In this document: positions 929 to 14,776 of the stretch, in pieces
Position numbering within the stretch: position 1 is the first letter of the stretch
How the letters are laid out: every line of letters starts with the position of its first letter
DNA from: Methylovirgula sp. 4M-Z18
Lineage (GTDB): Bacteria > Pseudomonadota > Alphaproteobacteria > Rhizobiales > Beijerinckiaceae
NCBI RefSeq assembly: GCF_037890675.1
Contig: NZ_CP149574.1
Coordinates: 2,952,874-3,016,873, forward strand
Direction: 5' to 3'
Length of the DNA stretch: 64,000 nt
Made by a program: the position numbers and the translations under genes
The notes under the pieces: model-generated
Told to the model about the DNA's origin: nothing
Seen by the model: only the letters and a program-made list of their open reading frames with translations
Databases searched by the model: none

Positions 929-1819
929 GTGTCCGTGAGCATGCAGATCGCGTCGCAACGCAGTGGACCAAACGCACCCTATTTTCGCCCCCGCACGCTT
1001 GCCGAGGCGCTCGACCTGCTCGCCGACACGAAGGGGCGCGTTCTTGCCGGCGGCACCGATTTTTATCCGCAATTGGGCGACCGGCCGGTCACGTTTCCGG
1101 TGATCGACATCACCGGCATTGCCGATTTGCGCGGCGTCACGGTCAGCGAGACGCATATTCGCGTCGGCGCTTGCGTCACCTGGAGCGAGATTGTCGCGAG
1201 CGATCTGCCCGAGGCCTGCCGTGCCCTACAATTGGCGGCGCGCGAGGTCGGCGCACGTCAGATCCAGAATGCCGGCACCGTCGCCGGCAATCTGTGCAAT
1301 GCGTCGCCCGCCGCCGACGGCGTGCCGCCGCTGCTGGCGCTGAATGCGGAAGTCGAAATGACCGCCCCGGAGGGCATCTCGCGCATCCCGCTCAGCGATT
1401 TCATCGTCGGCTACCGCAAGACCTGTTTGCCGCCCGGCGCACTCGTGACGGCCGTCGTCATTCCGCGTGATATTGCCGGGCCGTCGAGCTTCCTCAAACT
1501 CGGCGCGCGCACCTCTCTCGTGATTTCCATCGCGATGGTCGCGGCGATCGTCGAGACGGATGCACAGAACACGATCACGCAAGCGCGCATCGCGGTCGGC
1601 GCCTGCTCGGCCGTGGCGCAACGGCTGTTCGCCGCCGAAGCGGCATTGCGCGGCCAATCCTTCGCGCCGGGCTTCAGCCGCGCCGTGCTTGCGGATCATC
1701 TGGCGGAGCTGACGCCGATCGACGATCTGCGCGCCACCTCTACCTATCGACAAGAGGCGGCGCTGATCCTCGTGCGCCGCACCCTCGAAGCCTGCCTCGC
1801 GGAGCGGCATGATGCTTGA
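929..1819 (+). CDS. Molybdenum hydroxylase, FAD-binding (medium) subunit
   Basis: This 296-residue protein matches the CoxM / XdhB-type FAD subunit of xanthine dehydrogenase-family enzymes, at the usual length. It shows the first flavin motif (VLAGGTDFYPQL, about residues 39-50), the second (AGTVAGNLCNASPAAD, about 115-130), and a C-terminal CO_deh_flav_C-like region. It should pass electrons from the Fe-S clusters to the acceptor. The start shown is GTG at 929; ATG at 941 is an alternative, and neither has a strong ribosome site. It overlaps the next gene by 11 bp, so translation is probably coupled. From context the enzyme hydroxylates an N-heterocycle such as nicotinate. Confidence 0.88.
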   Translation: MSVSMQIASQRSGPNAPYFRPRTLAEALDLLADTKGRVLAGGTDFYPQLGDRPVTFPVIDITGIADLRGVTVSETHIRVGACVTWSEIVASDLPEACRALQLAAREVGARQIQNAGTVAGNLCNASPAADGVPPLLALNAEVEMTAPEGISRIPLSDFIVGYRKTCLPPGALVTAVVIPRDIAGPSSFLKLGARTSLVISIAMVAAIVETDAQNTITQARIAVGACSAVAQRLFAAEAALRGQSFAPGFSRAVLADHLAELTPIDDLRATSTYRQEAALILVRRTLEACLAERHDA

Positions 1820-4571
1820 ACGCGCCGTGCATCCGACCCTGAGCTTCACGCTGAACGGCGACGCGATCACGCTCGACACGGCCCCCGCGAAGCGCCTCAG
1901 CAAAGTGCTGCGCGAAGAGTGCGGATTGACCGGCACCAAGGTCGGATGCGACGCGGGCGATTGCGGCGCCTGCACCGTCCTGATCAACGGCGAAGCCATC
2001 TGCGCTTGTCTCACCGCCGCTGGCCAGGCTGAAGGCCGCACAATCGTCACCGTCGAAGGCCTGAAGAACAATGTGCCGGCCGCCGCCGGCCTCGCGGACT
2101 CGTTTCTGCGCCACGGCGCCGCGCAGTGCGGAATTTGTACCCCCGCCATGTTGATGGCCGCGAGCGCTCTGCTCGCCCGCGTGGCCGAGCCCGATGAAGC
2201 GCAAGTGCAGGAAGCGATCGCCGGCGTGCTCTGCCGCTGCACCGGCTATCGCAAAATCATCGACGCGATACTCGATGCGGGCCGCAGCGCCGCGCCGCAG
2301 CCGGTTGCATCGGGCGCCGCCGTCGGCGCGCGCGTTCCGCGCCTTGACGGACAGCGAAAGGTTGGCGGCACGGATCTTTTCGGCGCCGACGACATTCCCG
2401 GTGATGCCTTGCTGCTGCGCGCGATCCGCAGCCCGCACCATCGCGCCCGCTTCCGCTTCGGCGACCTTGAGCGCTATGCCGCGCGTCATCCCGGCATCGT
2501 CCGTATTTTCACCGCTACCGACGTGCCGGGCGAAAATTGCTATGGCGTGATCCCGCCGCTGGCCGACCAGCCGGTCTTTGCCGTGCACGAAACGCGCTTT
2601 CGCGGCGAAGCGGTCGCCGCCGTCGTCGGCCAGCGCGAGAGTATCGAGGCGCTCGATCTCGCCGACTTCCCGATCGCGTGGGAGGAGCTGCCAGCCCATA
2701 TCGCCACCGCCGATGCGGTCGCGCCGGACGCCGCGCTGGTGCACGCGCATCGCGCGGAAAACATTCTGGTACGCGGCCGCGTGGTGCGCGGCCATGTCGA
2801 CGAGGCCTTGGCGGAGGCCGATGCGATCGCCGAGGGCGAGTTCGAGACGGGCTTCGTCGAACACGCCTATATCGAACCGGAGGCGGGTTTTGCCCGCCGC
2901 GTCGGCGACCGCATCGAAGTGCAGGCCTGCACCCAATCGCCCTATATGGACCGCGACGACATCGCCCGGATTCTCAGCCTATCTCCCGACGCTGTGCGGA
3001 TCTTGCCGACGGCGGTGGGTGGCGGTTTCGGCTCGAAGCTCGATCTGTCGGTGCAGCCCTTCATCGCCGTGGCGGCATGGCATCTTCCCTACCCGGTCTA
3101 CATGATCTACTCCCGCCAGGAATCGATTATGACGACGACCAAGCGCCACCCCTCGATGATGCGCGCACGGGCCGGTGCGGACAAGACCGGCAAGCTTATC
3201 GGCCTCGACTTCCATGCGGATTTCAACACCGGCGCCTATGCCTCCTGGGGGCCGACAGTCGCCAACCGCGTTCCCGTGCATGCCTCCGGCCCCTATTACG
3301 TCCCGCATTACCGCGCGTTGAGCCGGGCCGTGCACACCCATCTCGTGCCGGCTGGCGCCTTTCGTGGGTTCGGCGTGCCGCAAGCCTCGATCGCGCAGGA
3401 GCAGCTTTACGACGAGCTTGCCGAAAAGCTTGGGCTCGATCGCCTCGAATTTCGCATTACCAATGCCCTGCGCGCTGACCAGCCGACTGTGACCGGGCAG
3501 GTTCTTGGCGCCGGCGTCGGCATCCGCGCCTGTTTCGAGGCGCTGCGTCCGCATTGGCGCCGCGCGCATGATCACGCGAAGGCCTTCAACACGAAAACGG
3601 ACGGCACGCGCCGGCGCGGCGTCGGCGTCGCCGGCATGTGGTACGGCTGCGGCAACACCTCGCTCGCCAATCCTTCGACAATCCGCGTGGCGCTGAAAGC
3701 CGATGGGCGCATCGCGCTGCATCAGGGCGCGGTCGATATCGGCCAGGGTTCGAATACGGTGATCCCGCAAATCTGCGCCGATGCGCTGGGGGCCCCGCTC
3801 GCTCTCTTCGATCTCATCGGCCCTGACACCGATATCACCCCCGATGCGGGCAAGACCTCGGCGTCGCGCCAGACCTTTGTCACCGGCAAGGCGGCGCAAC
3901 TCGCCGGCCTCGATTTGCGCCAGACCATCGCGCGCCTCGCCAATGCGCGCGAGGACGCGCACCTGTCGTTCCAAGGCGACGCGATCGAGGTGCGCGACCA
4001 TGACCATGTGAGCACACTGCAGCTCGATCAATTGCCGCGCGACGAACGTGGCTATGTCCTAATCGGCGAAGCGACGTTCGATCCGCCGACGAGCCCGCTC
4101 GATGCGGACGGCCAGGGCGATCCTTATGCGCTGTATGGCTTTGGCGCGCATATGGCCGAGGTCGAAGTCGATATGGAACTCGGCCGCGTGCGCGTGCTGA
4201 AAATCACCGCCGCCCATGATGTCGGCCGCGCCATTAACCCGACCCTCATCGAGGGCCAGGTGGAGGGCGGCGCGGCGCAAGGGCTGGGGCTGGCGCTGAT
4301 GGAAGAATTCCATCCGGGCCGCGGCGAGAGTTTGCACGATTATCTCATCCCCACCGTGGGCGACATGCCGCCGGTCGAAACGATCCTGATCGAGGATGCT
4401 TCGCCCGTCGGTCCGTTCGGCGCGAAAGGCATTGGCGAGCAGGCGCTGATCCCGACAGCGCCGGCGATTCTCAACGGCATTTACGACGCCGCGGGCGTTC
4501 GCATCCGCAAGGTTCCGGCAACCCCGGACCGCGTCCGCGCTGCAATTCAAAAGAAAGAAGGTCGGCCATGA
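1809..4571 (+). CDS. Molybdenum hydroxylase, fused [2Fe-2S] and Mo-cofactor subunits
   Basis: The 920-residue protein joins a CoxS-like Fe-S domain (about 1-160) to a CoxL/XdhB-like Mo domain (about 175-920). Plant-type cluster ligands are C47, C52, C55 and C67; the second cluster uses C107, C110, C142 and C144 (QCGIC, CRCTGY). The Mo part shows GGGFGSK, GAFRGFG, DIGQGSN and GAKGIGE near the C terminus, the last holding the catalytic glutamate of the family. The two parts are separate proteins in many members, so the fusion is a family variant. In E. barkeri, nicotinate dehydrogenase makes 6-hydroxynicotinate; the reductase gene that overlaps this stop codon (ATGA) supports a similar substrate. 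The exact substrate remains inferred. Confidence 0.88.
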   Translation: MMLERAVHPTLSFTLNGDAITLDTAPAKRLSKVLREECGLTGTKVGCDAGDCGACTVLINGEAICACLTAAGQAEGRTIVTVEGLKNNVPAAAGLADSFLRHGAAQCGICTPAMLMAASALLARVAEPDEAQVQEAIAGVLCRCTGYRKIIDAILDAGRSAAPQPVASGAAVGARVPRLDGQRKVGGTDLFGADDIPGDALLLRAIRSPHHRARFRFGDLERYAARHPGIVRIFTATDVPGENCYGVIPPLADQPVFAVHETRFRGEAVAAVVGQRESIEALDLADFPIAWEELPAHIATADAVAPDAALVHAHRAENILVRGRVVRGHVDEALAEADAIAEGEFETGFVEHAYIEPEAGFARRVGDRIEVQACTQSPYMDRDDIARILSLSPDAVRILPTAVGGGFGSKLDLSVQPFIAVAAWHLPYPVYMIYSRQESIMTTTKRHPSMMRARAGADKTGKLIGLDFHADFNTGAYASWGPTVANRVPVHASGPYYVPHYRALSRAVHTHLVPAGAFRGFGVPQASIAQEQLYDELAEKLGLDRLEFRITNALRADQPTVTGQVLGAGVGIRACFEALRPHWRRAHDHAKAFNTKTDGTRRRGVGVAGMWYGCGNTSLANPSTIRVALKADGRIALHQGAVDIGQGSNTVIPQICADALGAPLALFDLIGPDTDITPDAGKTSASRQTFVTGKAAQLAGLDLRQTIARLANAREDAHLSFQGDAIEVRDHDHVSTLQLDQLPRDERGYVLIGEATFDPPTSPLDADGQGDPYALYGFGAHMAEVEVDMELGRVRVLKITAAHDVGRAINPTLIEGQVEGGAAQGLGLALMEEFHPGRGESLHDYLIPTVGDMPPVETILIEDASPVGPFGAKGIGEQALIPTAPAILNGIYDAAGVRIRKVPATPDRVRAAIQKKEGRP

Positions 4572-6040
4572 ACATGGTGACGCCTCCGGCAAAAGACGAC
4601 AAGATCCGCTGCGATGCATGCCCGGTCATGTGCTACATCAAACCTGGCATGATGGGCGCGTGCGACCGCTATGCCAATCATGACGGCGAATTGGTGCGGC
4701 TCGATCCGCATGTCATTCTCGACCGCACGGTCGAACAGGGCGGCAAATTGGTGCCGTTTCACGCCAGCAGCGATTGGGACGGCAAATTGGTGCACGGATC
4801 CGAGACATTTGTGACCGCCATCGGCGCCGGCACCACCTATCCCGACTACAAGCCCGCCCCCTTCATCGTCTCGTCGACGGTCGACGGCGTCGATATGGTG
4901 ACGGTCGTCACCGAAGGCATTTTCAGCTATTGCGGCGTGAAGATAAAGATCGACACCGACCGCTTTCTCGGTCCGGAACGCAATCTCGTCCGTGCCGACG
5001 GCGAACCGGTCGGCCATGTGACGACGGGCGAATATGGCTCGCAGATGCTTACCCTCGGCGGTGTGCATCATCTGACCGGCGGCAGCAAAAAAGAGGGGCG
5101 CGTCACCTGTGAAACTCTGCTCGACCTAGCCAATGGCAAGGCGGTGGAACTGCAGATTGATGACGGTGCGAAAGTCGTGGTGCAGGCCGGCAAGGCGCCG
5201 ATCGTCAATGACGTGCAGGAGCACCTGATGCGCGTCGGCTGCGGCTCGGCGACGATCGGCATGTTCGCCAAGCAATGGCACGGCAAGGTCGATGAGGTGG
5301 TGGTGGTCGACGACCATATCACCGGTGTGCTGTCGGAACATCAGGCCGGCAAGATGCTCGGCATCCCGGAAACCGGCATCAAGATGAAGGGCCGGCGCTC
5401 CACACCGGGCCGCTATTTCCAGGTGGCCGAACCGGGTACGGGCTGGGGCGGTACTAATATTTCCGATCCGCTCACGATTCTGGCGCCGTTCGATGCCAAA
5501 GTGGCGAAGCCCGGTTTGCGGCTGCTGATGGTGTCGACGACCGGCGAGCATTACGGCTATTACGAGCTCGACGAAGCACTGCGGCCGGTGGAAAAAGACC
5601 TGCCGCCCAATCTGCGTCAATCGGTCGAGCGGATTCAGGAGAATTGCGAGCCCGCGCTCTGCACCGTGCTGTTCATGGGCGGCGCCGGTGGATCGCTGCG
5701 CGCTGGCGTGACCGAAAATCCGGTGGGTCTGACACAATCGGTCAAGAAGGCGCTCACCCATGTCACCTGCGGCGGCGCGCCGGTCTATGTCTGGCCCGGC
5801 GGCGGCATCACCTTCATGGTCGATGTGACGCGCGTGCCGGAAAATGCCTTCGGCTATGTCCCGACCCCGGCCCTGGTCGCGCCAATCGAATTTACCCTGC
5901 CGCTCGCAGATTATGCAGCGCTCGGCGGCCATATGGACCATGTCCGGCCGCTCTCGTCGCTGGCGGACGGGAACAAGCTGGCCCACCAGCGCGGCAACGT
6001 GCGGGTGACGACGCAAAATGCGGAGAGCACGCCCAAATGA
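4568..6040 (+). CDS. 6-hydroxynicotinate reductase homologue (Fe-S flavoprotein)
   Basis: This 490-residue protein resembles Hnr of Eubacterium barkeri, which reduces 6-hydroxynicotinate to 1,4,5,6-tetrahydro-6-oxonicotinate. The N terminus carries a cysteine cluster (C15-x2-C18-x3-C22-x9-C32) suited to a [4Fe-4S] centre. Further cysteines are C122, C181, C225, C360, C365 and C401. The characterised enzyme holds one [2Fe-2S], two [4Fe-4S] clusters and covalent flavin. A short GSAT motif at residues 226-229 recalls the SGAT flavinylation sites used by ApbE-type transferases. The gene overlaps both neighbours by ATGA junctions, in order after the hydroxylase. Start ATG is at 4568; there is no signal peptide, so it is cytoplasmic. 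Confidence 0.8.
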   Translation: MNMVTPPAKDDKIRCDACPVMCYIKPGMMGACDRYANHDGELVRLDPHVILDRTVEQGGKLVPFHASSDWDGKLVHGSETFVTAIGAGTTYPDYKPAPFIVSSTVDGVDMVTVVTEGIFSYCGVKIKIDTDRFLGPERNLVRADGEPVGHVTTGEYGSQMLTLGGVHHLTGGSKKEGRVTCETLLDLANGKAVELQIDDGAKVVVQAGKAPIVNDVQEHLMRVGCGSATIGMFAKQWHGKVDEVVVVDDHITGVLSEHQAGKMLGIPETGIKMKGRRSTPGRYFQVAEPGTGWGGTNISDPLTILAPFDAKVAKPGLRLLMVSTTGEHYGYYELDEALRPVEKDLPPNLRQSVERIQENCEPALCTVLFMGGAGGSLRAGVTENPVGLTQSVKKALTHVTCGGAPVYVWPGGGITFMVDVTRVPENAFGYVPTPALVAPIEFTLPLADYAALGGHMDHVRPLSSLADGNKLAHQRGNVRVTTQNAESTPK

Positions 6041-6951
6041 CTGCGCGCCGTGCGCATATCGCCCTTCTGCCCGACGGGCGGCGCCTGCACCTGCAGGATG
6101 GGCCGATCGACCTGATCGTCGAGGCCTATGGCGATGCGCAAGCGGTGACAGCGGCCTATCGCGCAGCGGCGGCTCGCTTCGAGGGTCTTCTCGATGCGCT
6201 GTGCCTCGAATTGCCGCGCCTGCGTTCGGACGCCCGCACGGCGGCCCCGCTGGAGCACCCGGTTGCCAAACGCATGCTCGCGGCGGTCCTGCCTTTTGCC
6301 GCTGAGACTTTCATTACGCCCATGGCGGCGGTCGCCGGCGCAGTCGCGCAGGAGATCTTGCACGCGATGCTGCAAGCCGCGCCCTTGCGCAAAGCCTATG
6401 TAAATAACGGCGGCGACATTGCTCTGCATCTGACGGGCGGCGAGACTTTCGACATCGGCCTCGTCGATAGGCCTGGCCGGCCGAGCCTGTTCGGCAAGGC
6501 GACATTGCATGCGCATGACCCCGCGCGTGGCATCGCGACCAGCGGCGCCCATGGCCGCAGTTTCTCGCTCGGCATTGCCGATGCGGTGACGGTGCTGGCG
6601 CACACCGCAGCTGAGGCGGATGCGGCGGCGACAATCATCGCCAATGCCATCGACTTGCCTGGTCACCCAGCGATCGCGCGCGTCCCGGCTTGCGAGCTGC
6701 AGCCGGATTCCGATCTCGGCACGCGCCTCGTGACGCGGCATGTCGGTGCGTTGAGCGACAGCGATATTGCGCGCGCACTCGAAGCCGGTGCGCGCTGCGC
6801 ACGCGATCTTCTCGCACGGGGCCTTATTGTCGCCGCGGCCCTGCATCTGCAGGGCGAGACAAGAAGTGTTGAAGATCGCGACGTTGCGCCCGCGCGCGTC
6901 GGCTATTCCCGCCATCAAACCAGTGGAAGATCCGCCTCATGCCCGATGTAG
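6037..6951 (+). CDS. UPF0280 family protein (ApbE-like fold)
   Basis: The 304-residue protein fits UPF0280, a family related to the FMN transferase ApbE but of unproven function. Visible features are the acidic start (LEHPVAKRMLAAV), the central YVNNGGDIALHL strand-turn, and GIATSGAHGRSFSLGIADAVTVLA, which matches the ApbE-like TSG...G...D.VTV region that binds Mg-FAD in true ApbE proteins. ATG at 6037 overlaps the reductase stop. Its own end overlaps the next start by 13 bp. It sits directly after a reductase family known to carry covalent flavin, so a flavin-attachment role is a reasonable but untested inference. Confidence 0.8.
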   Translation: MTARRAHIALLPDGRRLHLQDGPIDLIVEAYGDAQAVTAAYRAAAARFEGLLDALCLELPRLRSDARTAAPLEHPVAKRMLAAVLPFAAETFITPMAAVAGAVAQEILHAMLQAAPLRKAYVNNGGDIALHLTGGETFDIGLVDRPGRPSLFGKATLHAHDPARGIATSGAHGRSFSLGIADAVTVLAHTAAEADAAATIIANAIDLPGHPAIARVPACELQPDSDLGTRLVTRHVGALSDSDIARALEAGARCARDLLARGLIVAAALHLQGETRSVEDRDVAPARVGYSRHQTSGRSASCPM

Positions 6952-7523
6952 AAGTGCGCAAACAGATTGTCACCGTCGAGGAGATCTATCACGAGGGCGG
7001 TCCCGTGGCGCGCGTGCCGCTCAAGCGCGGCGCCATCTTGAGCGTCATCCGCAATCCGTTCGCGGGCCGCTACGTAGAGGAAATCGCCGATTACATGAAG
7101 GAGCTCGAGCCGCTCGGGATCGACATGGCGAACAGATTGGTCGCGGCGCTGGGCGTCGCAGCGAGCGCCATCGAAGGCTATGGCAAAGGCGCGATCGTCG
7201 GCGTGGCGGGCGAACTCGAACATGGCGCACTGTGGCATGTGCCGGGCGGCTACGCCATGCGCGCGGCTCTCGGAGACGCCAAGGCGATTGTCCCCTCCGC
7301 CAAGAAGGTCGGTGGGCCGGGCACGCGGCTCGACGTGCCGGTGACGCATATCAACGCCTCTTACGTCCGCAGCCATTTCGATGCGATGGAAGTGGGCGTA
7401 CCGGACGGGCCGCGTGCCGACGAGATGGCGCTCGTGTTGGTGATGACGACGGGCCCGCGCATTCACGCCCGCGTCGGCGGCCTCAAGGCTTCGGAGATCA
7501 AAGGTCTGGACGGTTTGAGATGA
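6939..7523 (+). CDS. AA_synth (DUF1185) family protein, paralogue 1
   Basis: This 194-residue protein belongs to PF06684, 'amino acid synthesis' proteins. Structures of the family show a Bacillus chorismate mutase-like fold, but no reaction is established. Shared blocks with the next gene include IRNPFAGRY (about residues 35-43), GYGKGAIVG, ELEHGA, and the pair THINASYVRSHFDAMEV and GLKASEIKG near the C terminus. It lies in a tight operon with the ring hydroxylase and reductase, so it probably acts on a ring-cleavage product or a late ring intermediate. That is inference from neighbourhood. Confidence 0.82.
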   Translation: MPDVEVRKQIVTVEEIYHEGGPVARVPLKRGAILSVIRNPFAGRYVEEIADYMKELEPLGIDMANRLVAALGVAASAIEGYGKGAIVGVAGELEHGALWHVPGGYAMRAALGDAKAIVPSAKKVGGPGTRLDVPVTHINASYVRSHFDAMEVGVPDGPRADEMALVLVMTTGPRIHARVGGLKASEIKGLDGLR

Positions 7524-8104
7524 GCGCCAAAATTCGCAAAATTGTCACCTTCGTCGAGGAAACTCACAGCGAGATGGGACAGGCCATCGTGCCGCCGACC
7601 CGCCGCGCCGCCGCCGTCGCCGTGATCGAGAACCCATTCGCCGGACGGTATGAAGCTGATCTCTCGCCGCTCATCGACATGAGCGAGGAACTCGGCGCGC
7701 TGCTCGCCGCCCGCGCTGTCGCAGCACTCGGGATCGAAGGCGCGAAGGCCGAAAGCTATGGCAAGGCGGCCGCGGTCGGCGAAAATGGCGAGCTCGAACA
7801 TGCCGCTGCTCTGCTGCACCCCAAACTCGGCACACCGATCCGCAAGGCGCTTGGCAAGGGCGCCGCGCTCATCCCTTCCTCGAAAAAGCGCGGCGGCCCT
7901 GGCGTCGTGCTGGACATTCCGCTCGGGCACAAGGATGCGGCCTATGTGCGCAGCCATTTCGACGGCATGGAGGTGCGCATTGCCGATGCGCCGCGCCCCA
8001 ACGAGATCATGCTGGCTGTCGCCGTCACCGACAGCGGGCGCCCGTTGCCGCGCGTCGGCGGCTTGACCAAAGATCAGATAAAAGGCGAGGATGGTTTGCG
8101 CTGA
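7520..8104 (+). CDS. AA_synth (DUF1185) family protein, paralogue 2
   Basis: This 194-residue protein is the same length as its upstream neighbour and clearly homologous: IENPFAGRY, SYGKAAAVG, ELEHAA, KDAAYVRSHFDGMEV and GLTKDQIKGEDGLR line up block by block. ATG at 7520 overlaps the previous stop as ATGA. The pair probably arose by tandem duplication. Conserved segments kept in both suggest a shared active site or a heteromeric complex, while diverged parts (for example PTRRAAAVA instead of PLKRGAILS) may change specificity. The function is unknown. An inverted copy of palindromic repeat A follows the stop. Confidence 0.82.
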   Translation: MSAKIRKIVTFVEETHSEMGQAIVPPTRRAAAVAVIENPFAGRYEADLSPLIDMSEELGALLAARAVAALGIEGAKAESYGKAAAVGENGELEHAAALLHPKLGTPIRKALGKGAALIPSSKKRGGPGVVLDIPLGHKDAAYVRSHFDGMEVRIADAPRPNEIMLAVAVTDSGRPLPRVGGLTKDQIKGEDGLR

Positions 8105-8185: not shown

Positions 8186-9391
8186 ATGAAAACGTTGTTG
8201 AAGTTTTCTGCATTGGTTCTCACAGGCTGGATGGTGGCGAGCGCCCCGGCGCAGGCGCAACAAGATGAAATTAAGATCGGCGAAATCAATTCCTATTCCG
8301 CCCTCCCCTCCTTCACCGAGCCCTATCGCAAAGGCTGGCAACTCGCGCTCGACGAGATCAACGCCAGTGGCGGCGTGCTCGGCAAGAAATTAACGATTAT
8401 CTCGAAGGATGACGGCGGCAAGCCGGCCGATGCGGTGACGGCCGCCAACGAGCTTGTTTCCAACGAAGGCGTCAGCCTGATTGCCGGCACGTTCTTCTCC
8501 AATATCGGTCTCGCGGTGTCGGACTTCGCCAAGCAGAAGAAGGTGATGTTCGTTGCGGCCGAGCCTTTGACCGACGCGGTTACCTGGTCGCAAGGCAACC
8601 ATTACACCTTCCGCCTGCGCCCCTCGAACTACATGCAAGCCGCGATGCTCGCGGAAGAAGCCGCAAAGAGCCCGGCCAAGCGCTGGGCGACGATCGCGCC
8701 CAATTACGAATATGGCCAATCGGCCGTCGCCGTGTTCAAGAAATTGCTGTCGGCCGAGCGTCCGGACATTCAATGGGTCGCCGAGCAATGGCCGCCGCAG
8801 GGCAAGATCGACGCCGGCCCGGTGGCCGAAGCGATCGCCGCCGCCAATCCCGATGCAATTCTCAACGTGACCTTCGGCCCCGATCTCGTAAAATTGGTGC
8901 GCGAGGGCAATACGCGCGGCCTGTTCAAGGATCGCACCGTCGTCAGCTTCCTCACCGGCGAACCGGAATATCTCGATCCGCTCAAGGACGAGACGCCGGC
9001 AGGCTGGATTGTCACGGGCTATCCTTGGTACAGCATCGACACGCCGGACCATGCCGCATTCCTGAAAGCCTATCAGGCCAAATACAATGATTACCCGCGC
9101 CTCGGTTCTGTCGTCGGCTATTCGACCGTGAAGGCGATTGCCGCGATCATTCAAAAGGCTGGCTCGACTGATACGGAAAAACTGATCGCCGCCGCGGAAG
9201 GTTTGGAATTCACCACGCCGTTCGGCAAAGTGGCCTTCCGCGCCATCGATCACCAATCGACGCTCGGCGCCTTCGTCGGCACGACCACGCTGAAGGATGG
9301 CAAGGGCGTGATGGCGAATGCGATCTATCATGAGGGCGCGAAATATCTGCCGAGCGATGACGAAGTGAAGAAAATGCGGCCGCAGGAGTGA
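8186..9391 (+). CDS. Branched-chain-amino-acid-type ABC transporter, substrate-binding protein
   Basis: This 401-residue protein is a LivK-type (Peripla_BP_6) periplasmic binding protein. The start chosen is ATG at 8186, which has a GAGGGGAGAG ribosome site and begins a clear signal peptide (MKTLLKF, hydrophobic core, cleavage after A-Q-A near residue 24). The upstream in-frame extension reads through repeat A and is not credible. The mature protein begins with IKIGEINSYSALPSF and has the usual LALDEINASGGVLGKK block. With the hydroxylase and reductase next to it, it probably binds a carboxylated heterocycle rather than leucine. That is inference from context. Confidence 0.88.
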   Translation: MKTLLKFSALVLTGWMVASAPAQAQQDEIKIGEINSYSALPSFTEPYRKGWQLALDEINASGGVLGKKLTIISKDDGGKPADAVTAANELVSNEGVSLIAGTFFSNIGLAVSDFAKQKKVMFVAAEPLTDAVTWSQGNHYTFRLRPSNYMQAAMLAEEAAKSPAKRWATIAPNYEYGQSAVAVFKKLLSAERPDIQWVAEQWPPQGKIDAGPVAEAIAAANPDAILNVTFGPDLVKLVREGNTRGLFKDRTVVSFLTGEPEYLDPLKDETPAGWIVTGYPWYSIDTPDHAAFLKAYQAKYNDYPRLGSVVGYSTVKAIAAIIQKAGSTDTEKLIAAAEGLEFTTPFGKVAFRAIDHQSTLGAFVGTTTLKDGKGVMANAIYHEGAKYLPSDDEVKKMRPQE

Positions 9392-9432
9392 CGGCGGTGG
9401 CGCAGGCCGCGGAGTCGCGTGACGGCAACGAA

Positions 9433-9563
9433 TGTCATCCCGGGCTTGGCGCGGGATCCAGCGCCGATGACGGCCACTCATGTTTGAGAGTGGTTGCGGC
9501 ACAAGGGTAATGATGACTCTGCCGTTGCTTGGCCCCGGATCCCGGGCCAAGCTCGGGATGACA
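9433..9563. repeat. Palindromic repeat B, copy 1
   Basis: TGTCATCCCGGGCTTGGCGC at one end and GGGCCAAGCTCGGGATGACA at the other form near-complementary arms of about 29 bp around a middle of roughly 70 bp. The element closely matches 36028-36147. It lies in the 267-bp gap between the binding-protein and permease genes. It is a common alphaproteobacterial intergenic type, with no coding content. Confidence 0.7.
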
Positions 9564-9658
9564 TCGAGGCCTTCTTCTGAAGTCATCGCTTACGATTATG
9601 GCACTCCCTTGTGGCGCCCTACCTTTGCGTGACGCGCAAGCCTTCTAAGGACCATTGA

Positions 9659-11539
9659 GTGAACTTTCCCTTTCTGATCATTCAATTCCTGACCGGCCTT
9701 GCGAGCGCGTCATCGCTCTTTCTCGTTGCCTCGGGCCTCTCGATCATTTTCGGCGTCACACGCATCGTTAATTTCGCCCACGGCGCGTTCTACATGCTGG
9801 GCGCCTATCTCGCCTATACGATGACCGAAACGCTGACCGGCGCTTTCGGCTTTTGGGGCGGCATTCTCATCGCCGCGCTCGGCGTCGCGCTGTTCGGTAC
9901 CCTGCTCGAAATGTCGCTCCTGCGCCGCATCTATCACGCGCCGGAGCTGTTTCAATTGCTCGCGACCTTCGGCGTGACCTTGATGGTGGAGGACCTCGTC
10001 GTCATCATCTGGGGACCGGACGATCTATCGGGGCCACGCGCGCCGGGCTTTCGCGGCGCTGTCGACATTCTCGGCCACAAACTCCCGAGCTACGATCTCT
10101 TCCTCATCGTGCTCGGGCCGCTGGTCCTTCTTGCGCTCTGGCTGTTGTTCCGCCGCACCCGCTGGGGCATTCTCGTGCGCGCGGCAACGCAGGATCGCGA
10201 CATGGTCGCCGCACTTGGCGTCAATCAAAAATGGCTGTTTACCAGCGTCTTCGCGCTCGGCGCCTTTCTCGCGGGGCTCGGCGGCGCGCTACAAATTCCG
10301 CGCGATTCCGCCAATCACGTGATGGACCTCCCGATCGTTGTGGAGGTCTTCGTTGTCGTGGTCATCGGCGGATTGGGCAGCGTCTTCGGCGCTTTCGTCG
10401 CGGCGGTCATGGTCTCCGAACTCAATGCGTTTGGCATCCTGATCTTTCCAAAAATCTCGCTGATCCTCGTGTTTGCGGTCATGGCCGTCGTGCTGGTCTG
10501 GCGTCCGTGGGGCTTGTTCGGCAAACCGGAACCGGTGCGGCGCCACGGCTTTGCTCTCGCGGTGCGGCCCTGGCAACCTTTCAATGCCCGCGAGCGCAAC
10601 GGCGCATTGTTCGGTATCGCCTTTGCCGCGCTGCTGCCGTTACTGATCGGCCTTGTCGCCAAGCCGGATTATTTTCAGACCGTCGGCACGGAAATCTGCA
10701 TCTTCGTGCTGTTTGCCGCGAGCCTGCAATTCCTGATGTCGGTTGCCGGTCTCGCCTCGTTCGGCCACGCGTGCTATTTCGGCCTGGGTGCCTATGGCGC
10801 CGCCTTCGCCACAAAATATTTCGGCCTGCCGATGGAGGCCGCTCTTCTGGCGGGCCCGCTGTTCGGCCTGTGCGGCGCGACTCTTTACGGCTGGTTCAAC
10901 GTGCGTTTGAGCGGCGTCTATTTCGCCATGCTCACGCTCGCCTTCGCGCAGATCACCTGGTCGGTCGCCTTCCAATGGGTGGAAGTGACCGGCGGCGACA
11001 ACGGCATTCTCGGCGTGTGGCCCTCCGCCTGGGCGTCGAATTCACGCATCTTCTATTGGTTCACTCTCGCGATCACCGTGCTCGGCGTGATCGCGCTGCG
11101 GCGCATCACTTTCTCGCCCTTCGGCTACGGCTTACGCGCCATCCGCGATTCCGATTTGCGCGCCGAGGCGATCGGCATGGCGCGGCCGAAAATGCAATGG
11201 ATCGCCTTCGTGATCGCCGGCACGACTGCCGGTCTCGCCGGCGCTCTGTTCGCCTTCTTCAAGGGCAATGTTTTTCCCAACACGCTCGAGATTCCGGTCT
11301 CGGTCGATGGTCTGGTGATGGTGCTCCTCGGCGGCATCGAGACGGTCTCCGGGGCCATCGCAGGCGCTGTTCTCTACAAGATCCTCGCGATCTGGCTGAT
11401 GAACCTGACCGACCACGCGAAAGTGGTGCTGGGCGCCATCATCGTGCTGCTCGTCGTCGCGTTCCCGAAAGGCCTTGTCGGCACATTGCAGGAAGCGATC
11501 GCGCGCCGCCTCGCGAGAGCAAAGGTTGACGCCGCATGA
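9659..11539 (+). CDS. ABC transporter permease, LivH-LivM fusion
   Basis: This 626-residue protein joins two permeases that are usually separate. Residues 1 to about 300 are LivH-like (SGLSIIFGVTRIVNFAHGAFYMLGAYLA; GGLGSVFGAFVAA). Residues about 310-626 are LivM-like (VAGLASFGHACYFGLGAYGAAFA; GGIETVSGAIAGAVLY). Each half has many membrane helices and an EAA-type loop. Translation starts at GTG 9659 behind a TAAGGA site. The stop overlaps the next gene as ATGA. Fusion fixes a 1:1 permease ratio. The transporter should take up the substrate of the upstream enzymes. Confidence 0.9.
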   Translation: MNFPFLIIQFLTGLASASSLFLVASGLSIIFGVTRIVNFAHGAFYMLGAYLAYTMTETLTGAFGFWGGILIAALGVALFGTLLEMSLLRRIYHAPELFQLLATFGVTLMVEDLVVIIWGPDDLSGPRAPGFRGAVDILGHKLPSYDLFLIVLGPLVLLALWLLFRRTRWGILVRAATQDRDMVAALGVNQKWLFTSVFALGAFLAGLGGALQIPRDSANHVMDLPIVVEVFVVVVIGGLGSVFGAFVAAVMVSELNAFGILIFPKISLILVFAVMAVVLVWRPWGLFGKPEPVRRHGFALAVRPWQPFNARERNGALFGIAFAALLPLLIGLVAKPDYFQTVGTEICIFVLFAASLQFLMSVAGLASFGHACYFGLGAYGAAFATKYFGLPMEAALLAGPLFGLCGATLYGWFNVRLSGVYFAMLTLAFAQITWSVAFQWVEVTGGDNGILGVWPSAWASNSRIFYWFTLAITVLGVIALRRITFSPFGYGLRAIRDSDLRAEAIGMARPKMQWIAFVIAGTTAGLAGALFAFFKGNVFPNTLEIPVSVDGLVMVLLGGIETVSGAIAGAVLYKILAIWLMNLTDHAKVVLGAIIVLLVVAFPKGLVGTLQEAIARRLARAKVDAA

Positions 11540-12312
11540 CGCCGTTGCTGCAGGTCAACCATCTCGCGAAATCCTATGGCGGCGTCAAAGCGGTCAAGGA
11601 CGTGTCCTTCACGCTGCGGGCCGGCGAAAGTCTCGCGCTCATCGGCCCCAACGGCGCCGGCAAGAGCACGTGTTTCAACATGCTCAACGGCCAGATCGCG
11701 CCGAACAGCGGCACGATCCTGCTGGACGACCGCAATATCACGGGATTGAAGCCGCATCAGGTGTGCCGCCTCGGCGTCGGCCGCACGTTTCAGATCACGG
11801 CGACATTCGCATCGATGACGGTGATCGAAAATATCCAGACGGCGCTGATGTCACATGCGGGGCAATCGACACATGTCTTGCGCGATGCGACGCAGGCCTT
11901 TCGCGCCGAGGCCGCGGCTCTCCTGAGCTTGACCGGCATGGCCGAGCACGCGGCAAGGCCCTGCGGCGAACTCGCCTATGGCGATTTGAAACGCTTGGAA
12001 TTGGCGATCGCTCTTGCCAACGAACCAAAACTGCTGCTGATGGACGAGCCGACCGCCGGCATGGCGCCGAAAGAGCGTGCGACGCTGATGCGGCTTGTGG
12101 CGCGCATCGCCAAGGAGCGGAACATGGGCCTGTTGTTCACCGAACATGACATGGATGTCGTGTTCGAACATGCAACCCGCGTGCTCGTTCTCTCGCGCGG
12201 CGAACTCATTGCGCAAGGCACGCCGCAGGAGATTCGCAACGACGCGAATGTGCGCGCCATCTATCTCGGCGATGGCCTGCTTTATCACCCCGAAGGCAAG
12301 GGGGCGGCATGA
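11536..12312 (+). CDS. livG: ABC transporter ATP-binding protein, LivG type
   Basis: The 258-residue ATPase shows Walker A GPNGAGKST (about residues 36-44), Q-loop region TFQITATF, an ABC signature reduced to CGELAYGDLKRLE, Walker B LLLMDEPTAGMAP and the switch histidine in LLFTEHDMDVVF. The Pro rather than Ala/Thr after GLAP-like 'GMAP' and the TEHDM motif are typical of LivG. Start and stop overlap both neighbours by ATGA junctions, so it is translated with the permease and LivF. It energises uptake from the cytoplasmic face. Confidence 0.9.
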   Translation: MTPLLQVNHLAKSYGGVKAVKDVSFTLRAGESLALIGPNGAGKSTCFNMLNGQIAPNSGTILLDDRNITGLKPHQVCRLGVGRTFQITATFASMTVIENIQTALMSHAGQSTHVLRDATQAFRAEAAALLSLTGMAEHAARPCGELAYGDLKRLELAIALANEPKLLLMDEPTAGMAPKERATLMRLVARIAKERNMGLLFTEHDMDVVFEHATRVLVLSRGELIAQGTPQEIRNDANVRAIYLGDGLLYHPEGKGAA

Positions 12313-13013
12313 AGCTCATGGTCAGCGGCCTCAACGCCTTCTACGGCCCCGCGCACATTTTGCGCGATGTCAGCTTCGAGGTCGGCGCCGGCGAAGTCGT
12401 CGCCATGCTCGGCCGCAACGGTGCCGGAAAATCGACGACGTTCAAGGCGCTCGTCGGTTTGGTGCCGCAGCGCAACGGCAAGATCATCTTTGAAGATAAA
12501 GATATCTCAAGCCGCCCCACCTATGAGATCGCCCGCGCTGGGCTCGGCTATGTGCCCGAAGACCGGCGAATTTTCACCGAGCTTACGGTCGAGGAAAATC
12601 TTGCCATCGGCCGGCAAAAGACGCGCACACAGGGCGCGAATTGGACACCCGACAAGCTTTATGAGCTGTTTCCCAATCTCGCCGAAATGCGCAGCCGCGC
12701 GGGCGGCCGGATGAGCGGCGGCGAACAGCAGATGCTCACCATTGCCCGCACGCTCATGGGCAATCCCTCGCTCGTGCTGCTCGACGAGCCGTCCGAAGGC
12801 CTCGCGCCGAAAATCGTCGAGCAAATGGCCCGTGCCATACTAGTCATGAAGAACGAGGGGCTTAGCGTCGTGATCTCTGAGCAAAACCTGCACTTTGCCC
12901 GCCTCATTTCCGATCGCGCCTATATCCTCGAGAAGGGACATATAGTATTTGGTGGGATGATCGCGGAGATCGAGGCGCGGCCCGAAATCCGCGACGCCTA
13001 TTTGTCAGTCTGA
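12309..13013 (+). CDS. livF: ABC transporter ATP-binding protein, LivF type
   Basis: This 234-residue protein carries Walker A GRNGAGKST, a Q-loop in the GYVPEDRRIFTELTVEENL block typical of LivF, signature MSGGEQQML, Walker B LVLLDEPSEGLAP and switch region VVISEQNLHFA. The length is normal for LivF. It closes the transporter set and is followed, 40 bp later, by the MarR regulator gene. No transcription terminator is visible between them, so they may be co-transcribed. Confidence 0.9.
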   Translation: MKLMVSGLNAFYGPAHILRDVSFEVGAGEVVAMLGRNGAGKSTTFKALVGLVPQRNGKIIFEDKDISSRPTYEIARAGLGYVPEDRRIFTELTVEENLAIGRQKTRTQGANWTPDKLYELFPNLAEMRSRAGGRMSGGEQQMLTIARTLMGNPSLVLLDEPSEGLAPKIVEQMARAILVMKNEGLSVVISEQNLHFARLISDRAYILEKGHIVFGGMIAEIEARPEIRDAYLSV

Positions 13014-13576: not shown

Positions 13577-14776
13577 CTATGACACCACCACTTCCGGCAC
13601 GTTCGTCGCCGGCGGCGTATTGCGGCTGCGGCCAGTGCGCACGATGCCGTCGATGATCGTCATGCCGACGCCGGGCAAATCGCCGAGTTGCACGCTGTCC
13701 AACAAATTCTTGCCGGCCGAATGCTGGGCCTTATCCATCAGCACGAAATCGGCCGAGCGTCCGACCTCGATCAGACCGCAATCCAATTTGCGCATGCGCG
13801 CCGTATTGCCCGTGGCAAAGCAGAAGGCAATCTCGGCCGGCACGTCGCCCAGGCTGGAGAGGAGCGACACCATGCGCAAAATGCCAAGAGGCTGCACACC
13901 AGAGCCCGCCGGCGCATCGGTGCCGAGAATAACGCGCTGCAAGTCGTTCATCTCCCTGGCGACCCGCAACGTGTACAGCGCGGCGCGTTCGTTGCCGTTG
14001 TGCACCAATTCGAGCCCGCGCTTGCAGCCCTCGCAAATGCAGCGGATCTGATCGGTCGGCAGAGCGGTATGGCCGCCGTTGATGTGGCCAACCACATCCG
14101 TATCCGCCTCCAGCACCACATCCTTGTCGATCAGCCCGGAGCCGGGAATGGACGGCCCGCCGGTGTGGATCGTCGATTGAATGCCGTATTTGCGCGCCCA
14201 CGCGACCATTTGCCGCGCAGTCGGGCCGTCCTTGACGCCACCGAGGCCGACCTCGCCTAGAAGCGTCACGCCCGCATCGGCGAGATCCTTGAAGTCCTGC
14301 TCGACCATCCCCGGTTCGATGCAGGGCGCGCCGGCATGCACCTTGACGCCGCCGGGGCGAAAGGCGCTGAAGGTGCGTTGTGCGGTGATCGCCATGGCCT
14401 TGAGGCCGACGATGTCGCGCGGCCGGCCGGGCGTGTGCACTTCGCCGGCCGAAATCATGGTGGTGACCCCGCCATGCAGGAAACTGTCGATCCAGCCGAG
14501 CTGGTTCTGGCGCGGCGTCCAGTCGCCGGCGACCGGATGCACATGGCTGTCGATCAGGCCGGGGCTGACGCAAGTGCCATGCGCATCGACAATGCTGGTC
14601 GCGCCGGACGTGTCGACATCCTTGGCGCGGCCGATGGCGGCGATTTTGCCGTCCACGGCCACGATCGTATCGGCATCGAGAATCGGGTTTGCGAGGTCGC
14701 CGCTGAGCATGAGGCCGATGTTGCGGATCACCAGTTTTTGCGGGCCTTTCGGTGCCTTTACCTCTTCGTGCGCCAT
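13577..14776 (-). CDS. Enamidase homologue (amidohydrolase superfamily)
   Basis: This 399-residue protein resembles enamidase of E. barkeri, a binuclear Fe-Zn amidohydrolase that hydrolyses 1,4,5,6-tetrahydro-6-oxonicotinate to 2-formylglutarate and ammonia. Candidate metal ligands are visible: HVH (H78, H80), E175 in GEVGLGG, H204 in TIHTGG, H231 in VGHINGGH and D287 in LGTDAPAG. Start ATG at 14776 follows GAGGAGGGGTGAGAG. It is encoded convergently to the main operon but supplies the next step of the same route. The TTTGTACACAAA operator lies upstream of its start. Hydantoinase-like alternatives are less likely given the reductase in the cluster. Confidence 0.85.
   Translation of the reverse strand: MAHEEVKAPKGPQKLVIRNIGLMLSGDLANPILDADTIVAVDGKIAAIGRAKDVDTSGATSIVDAHGTCVSPGLIDSHVHPVAGDWTPRQNQLGWIDSFLHGGVTTMISAGEVHTPGRPRDIVGLKAMAITAQRTFSAFRPGGVKVHAGAPCIEPGMVEQDFKDLADAGVTLLGEVGLGGVKDGPTARQMVAWARKYGIQSTIHTGGPSIPGSGLIDKDVVLEADTDVVGHINGGHTALPTDQIRCICEGCKRGLELVHNGNERAALYTLRVAREMNDLQRVILGTDAPAGSGVQPLGILRMVSLLSSLGDVPAEIAFCFATGNTARMRKLDCGLIEVGRSADFVLMDKAQHSAGKNLLDSVQLGDLPGVGMTIIDGIVRTGRSRNTPPATNVPEVVVS

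Follow-up and report, generated by a model that had tools for sequence, protein, structure and literature searches.

Enzymes of the ApbE type move the FMN part of FAD onto a Ser or Thr residue in a metal-dependent reaction, and the 6-hydroxynicotinate reductase (Hnr) of E. barkeri reportedly carries a covalently bound flavin. The E. barkeri reductase is 42% identical to the SG-6C Hnr of a conserved proteobacterial cluster (PMC3511419). According to the accessible text of PMC12052999, the V. cholerae flavin-transferring enzyme has the triad Asp285-Ser241-His257, with His257 acting as the base, and the motif of ApbE clients is Dxx[ST]GA[ST]. A further group, COG2122, has been described in a different context. 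Mutants of the D. vulgaris COG2122 gene were rescued by methionine, COG2122 was genetically required for homocysteine synthesis together with a DUF39 protein, and the fitness of the mutants tracked the DUF39 gene (r = 0.98, 170 experiments); the same source notes that the homology of COG2122 to ApbE seems not to reach the flavin-binding region (PMC5764234, in the text available). The member MA1715 was called a sulfur-trafficking protein (PMC12068725), and a methanogen member is described as having a Cys-bearing cluster near its C-terminus (PMC9431491). No report of a link between UPF0280 and Hnr was found in the openly licensed literature.

The DNA analyzed here, called the window, is a stretch of 64,000 nucleotides from Methylovirgula sp. 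4M-Z18, in which the hnr gene lies within a nicotinate cluster made up of the following features.

929..1819, forward strand: FAD subunit of a xanthine-dehydrogenase-type hydroxylase, likely a nicotinate dehydrogenase to judge from the cluster
1809..4571, forward strand: fused 2Fe-2S and molybdopterin subunit of the same hydroxylase, its probable role likewise taken from the cluster
4568..6040, forward strand: Hnr, 490 aa, with Cys residues C15, C18, C22 and C32 near the N-terminus
5243..5254, forward strand: GSAT, residues 226-229 of Hnr, where C225, G226, S227 and A228 are invariant
6037..6951, forward strand: UPF0280 protein (NF003322, COG2122-type, ApbE fold), 304 aa
6939..7523, forward strand: first AA_synth (PF06684) protein, its start overlapping the end of the UPF0280 gene
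7526..8104, forward strand: second AA_synth (PF06684) protein, start approximate
8192..13013, forward strand: ABC transporter with substrate-binding protein, fused permease and two ATPases
13577..14776, reverse strand: amidohydrolase, a candidate enamidase that would catalyze the third pathway step

In the transporter, the permease and the first ATPase were named by eye, and the substrate-binding protein and the second ATPase by search; a MarR regulator gene lies between the transporter and the amidohydrolase on the opposite strand. The assignment of Hnr is based on homology to named Hnr proteins and on its position in the nicotinate cluster, and is supported by 26 related plasmid records with 60-80% identity, 17 of which are annotated as hnr or 6-hydroxynicotinate reductase. 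The Hnr and UPF0280 genes share the four bases ATGA, the start ATG (6037-6039) lying over the stop TGA (6038-6040) of Hnr, so the overlap with an ApbE-related gene reported by the sequence-only reading was confirmed. The UPF0280 gene sits with enzymes that are presumably cytosolic; most ApbEs seem to be secreted, although cytosolic ones exist (PMC12052999, in part). The two AA_synth genes (window 6939-8104) are adjacent and belong to the same operon as Hnr and UPF0280. The Cys cluster in residues 1-45 of Hnr (window 4568-4700) shows weak similarity to the N-terminal part of radical SAM proteins of the AmmeMemoRadiSam system (TIGR04337, E 0.011), and in other genomes the Hnr N-terminus repeatedly gave matches of this kind, some 40 residues long. 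On a Comamonadaceae plasmid (L194, 9375-11994) the divergent neighbor of Hnr is a gene for a ferredoxin-NADP reductase, a possible electron donor.

The distribution of the two genes was compared in two samples of genomes. In the family sample (99 genomes), Hnr was found in 27 genomes and NF003322 in the same 27, with none among the other 72. Hnr presence varied within 9 of the 43 genera of this sample, and UPF0280 tracked it every time. In the phylum sample (398 genomes, the best few first-look candidates per genome being scored, as in the Acidobacteriota scan below), Hnr was present in 32 genomes, counted with G112, in which the gene is frameshifted, and without ten matches confined to profile positions 7-53 (E 7e-5 to 1e-3). 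NF003322 exceeded its cut-off in the same 32 and in none of the other 366, two sub-cut-off matches (G383, G462) being left out of this count. Two of the 32 genomes also belong to the family sample, which gives 57 distinct Hnr genomes. The survey of co-occurrence suggested by the sequence-only reading was strongly positive. In G112 (locus L246) Hnr is broken near model position 248 and the adjacent UPF0280 matches without a stop, which may be an assembly error; a two-subunit Hnr was considered for this genome and rejected in favor of a frameshift. At the named-genome loci, which are the best 80 of 592 Hnr loci, a UPF0280 match lay in the fetched flank and on the same strand in 77 of the 80, and in 61 of those 77 the overlap was the identical four bases, stop codon included; with this uniformity of strand and overlap, the arrangement is not due to chance. 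The named loci added 12 further genomes, 11 of them with NF003322; the sole miss was L097, the Hnr of which sits at a contig end.

Several genomes keep UPF0280 apart from Hnr. The two genes are about 2.5 Mb apart in G078 and on separate contigs in G042. In both genomes the unlinked UPF0280 gene adjoins exonuclease VII, and none of the 13 window proteins had a match in the stretch fetched around it, save distant ABC ATPases in G042. UPF0280 is also kept in the L074 genome, where Hnr lies on another contig. The L132 genome likewise has the two genes on different contigs, its UPF0280 being found together with the hydroxylase and AA_synth genes. Among plasmids, 26 records had Hnr; all of these also had UPF0280, as did one more. 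The additional record, a Hydrogenophaga plasmid (L193, NZ_CP044550.1), has four UPF0280 places, two of which, within the stretch read, adjoin IS1071 and a Rieske oxygenase cassette; no Hnr match was present on the plasmid itself. Of 297 Acidobacteriota genomes, 39 matched Hnr; in one, the centre genome itself, the match was full-length, and in the remaining 38 it covered a short N-terminal stretch of Hnr. Seven Hnr-bearing assemblies of named Acidobacteriota (L099, L102, L104, L108, L109, L117, L118) all have NF003322.

The AA_synth neighbor proved looser, being found in 25 of the 27 Hnr genomes of the family sample and in 8 of the 72 genomes lacking Hnr. The idea that the co-occurrence merely reflects operon linkage is weakened both by this result and by the kept unlinked copies of UPF0280. 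From the exact co-occurrence, UPF0280 is very likely a dedicated partner of Hnr, and we hold this conclusion with high confidence. The location of its gene inside a catabolic cluster could also mean that UPF0280 is itself an enzyme of nicotinate breakdown rather than a maturation factor. This appears quite improbable, given that candidate enzymes seem to be present already for the first three steps and that the AA_synth operon-mates are looser partners of Hnr than UPF0280 is.

The UPF0280 protein matched NF003322 with 412.2 bits (cut-off 290) and thus belongs to this family, and it scored 21.9 bits against Pfam ApbE, under the cut-off of 25.6. Its structure was predicted confidently (pLDDT 92). 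A Foldseek search with the model returned 2o34 first and then ApbE-type proteins, with E 2.4e-5 to FmnB 7esb; the TM-scores with the ApbE-type chains were modest, at 0.3 to 0.5. By VIA-align the Z score was 20.0 with 2o34 and 14.1 to 16.6 with ApbE, Ftp and FmnB (205 to 221 residues aligned), as compared with 8.4 at most for other folds. On the predicted model, then, UPF0280 has the ApbE fold, and the whole fold is common to it and the ApbE/Ftp/FmnB proteins (PF02424). By sequence and fold, the COG2122 proteins DVU1097 (PDB 2o34), MA1715 and DvMF_0044 belong to the same family as UPF0280.

The active-site region was compared by hhalign of the UPF0280 profile with a profile of 12 ApbE sequences taken from the same genomes, which aligned the second half (probability 79%, E 1.6e-5). 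TSG was paired with TSG and ADAAAT with ADAxxT, and the ApbE stretch with the HTIDPRTG-type motif stood opposite a gap in UPF0280; 2o34 aligns with UPF0280 through the same stretch, likewise without the ApbE insertion. We equate the Ser, His and Asp of the triad with the TSG, HTIDPRTG-type and ADA motifs, respectively. Read in this way, the TSG Ser, the ADA Asp and the following Thr of ApbE/Ftp/FmnB are also found in UPF0280, whereas the segment with the catalytic His is missing, so that the complete Asp-Ser-His triad is absent. The alignment of UPF0280 comprised 45 sequences, that of the window and 44 from the 80 fetched loci after removal of near-duplicates and of loci in which a gene was truncated or missing. 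Ser169, Asp195, Thr199, Asn123, Gly125, Gly126 and Asp127 were invariant in all 45. At the positions of the window protein no invariant His was found in the 45 sequences, the best being His18 (41/45) in an N-terminal strand, and no invariant Cys, the best being position 56 (Cys in 36/45). Loss of the His alone does not exclude activity, as the H257G variant of the V. cholerae enzyme was lowered in activity and had a Km for FAD changed only from 0.1 to 0.2 uM (PMC12052999, in the text available).

The lack of the catalytic His could be explained if UPF0280 were a subunit or chaperone of Hnr with no catalytic function, in which the ApbE fold has been stripped of its chemistry and serves to stabilize or activate the reductase. 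Such a role would also fit the tight co-occurrence and the gene overlap. The invariance of Ser169, Asp195, Thr199, Asn123 and Gly125-Asp127 suggests, however, that a ligand or metal site has been kept, and we consider a purely structural partner rather unlikely.

The sequence-only reading had proposed that UPF0280 flavinylates the GSAT motif of Hnr. The motif is indeed found at residues 226-229, as a single occurrence. The Hnr alignment comprised 49 sequences, that of the window and 48 from the 80 fetched loci, selected in the same way as for UPF0280. Dxx[ST]GA[ST] was found in none of the 49 and in none of the 27 Hnr proteins of a second sequence set. GCGSA was conserved without exception in the 49, and all 27 have it as well. 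Residue 229 was Thr in 46/49 and 26/27, and Ala in L074, L122 and L125 of the first set and L021 of the second. The genomes of all four keep UPF0280, and T229 as a universal flavin site is thereby ruled out. Canonical ApbE-type transfer of FMN to T229 of GSAT, for which the presence of the motif, the prevalence of Thr and the ApbE fold of UPF0280 could be cited, can hardly be correct in view of these Ala residues, the lack of the client motif in Hnr and the lack of the catalytic His in UPF0280. S227 stays a possible flavin site, being invariant in the 49, and the many other invariant Ser and Thr residues in the Hnr alignment make a site elsewhere possible. The invariant C225 beside GSAT may be a cluster ligand. 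The predicted structure of Hnr was of low confidence (pLDDT 66.6), with a helix at 226-237 beginning at GSAT. A fold shared with known flavoproteins was sought with this poor model, which gave no Foldseek match at E 0.001 or better. In a Pfam search, 48 of the 49 Hnr proteins matched GCV_T_C (best E 3.2e-4, the match of the window protein lying under the cut-off), and there were two single chance-level matches besides.

The sequence-only reading had also stated that UPF0280 proteins have no proven function, which is partly wrong, as COG2122 has genetic evidence for a role in homocysteine synthesis (PMC5764234, in part). By analogy with the proposal for COG2122 and the DUF39 enzyme, UPF0280 might donate sulfur, as a persulfide, or aid an Fe-S centre of Hnr. 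The requirement for COG2122 alongside DUF39 (PMC5764234) and the sulfur-trafficking designation (PMC12068725), as far as these accounts are accessible, speak for such a role, as do the invariant Cys residues present in the Hnr alignment. UPF0280 itself, however, has no invariant Cys and thus no obvious sulfur ligand. Moreover, while DVU1097, MA1715 and DvMF_0044 are tied to DUF39 homocysteine synthesis, DUF39 (PF01837) was found in 0 of the 57 Hnr genomes, with matches in 3 of 14 in the control. A sulfur role is therefore regarded as improbable. Given the lack of both an invariant Cys and DUF39, UPF0280 apparently acts for another client, most obviously Hnr.

Other flavin transferases were sought in the same genomes. 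Canonical ApbE (PF02424) exceeded the cut-off in 24 of the 57 Hnr genomes, a count that leaves out one sub-cut-off match in G251 at its own UPF0280, and was absent in 33. The genome of the window itself has no canonical ApbE over the cut-off and no FMN_bind protein. With 33 of the 57 genomes, that of the window included, lacking canonical ApbE, UPF0280 would be the best candidate if the flavin of Hnr is covalent and its attachment enzyme-dependent. We therefore tentatively favor, at somewhat less than an even chance, the explanation that UPF0280 is a dedicated maturation partner of Hnr that installs flavin in some way; the proposal supposes that Hnr is its target, that flavin is the cargo and that the two become covalently linked. 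UPF0280 would bind FAD or another adenine dinucleotide, and with it a metal ion, in its ApbE-type cleft and would help to install the flavin of Hnr; the attachment may be covalent, with FMN transferred to one of the invariant Ser or Thr residues. This would take place without the ApbE catalytic His and without the ApbE target motif, which implies a changed mechanism at a site other than T229. Thus, of the transferase role first suggested for UPF0280, the fold, the co-occurrence and the 33 genomes without PF02424 stand in support, but the catalytic His and the client motif are missing. Flavin installation is further disfavored by the 24 genomes that do have PF02424, by the doubt over the flavin-binding region of COG2122 and by the service of its sister protein to DUF39 and sulfur trafficking (both as given in the accessible text of the papers above). 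The accessible part of the openly licensed literature yielded no report of covalent flavin in a proteobacterial Hnr, which also counts against it.

A wider possibility, which we consider unlikely but worth stating, is that COG2122/UPF0280 proteins are a second class of enzymes that install cofactors by means of an ApbE fold, one that lacks the His. Each member would be devoted to a single cytosolic reductive enzyme, either Hnr or the DUF39 homocysteine enzyme, and would attach flavin, or some other group derived from a nucleotide, at a motif with no relation to the ApbE motif. The published genetic role of COG2122 is in homocysteine synthesis. The link to Hnr, exception-free in the samples and found in genomes without DUF39, would provide a second client of COG2122 and a simple two-gene test system. 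If flavin transfer proves true, the makers of covalent flavoproteins would extend beyond ApbE; if it does not, the ApbE fold would be shown to have been reused.
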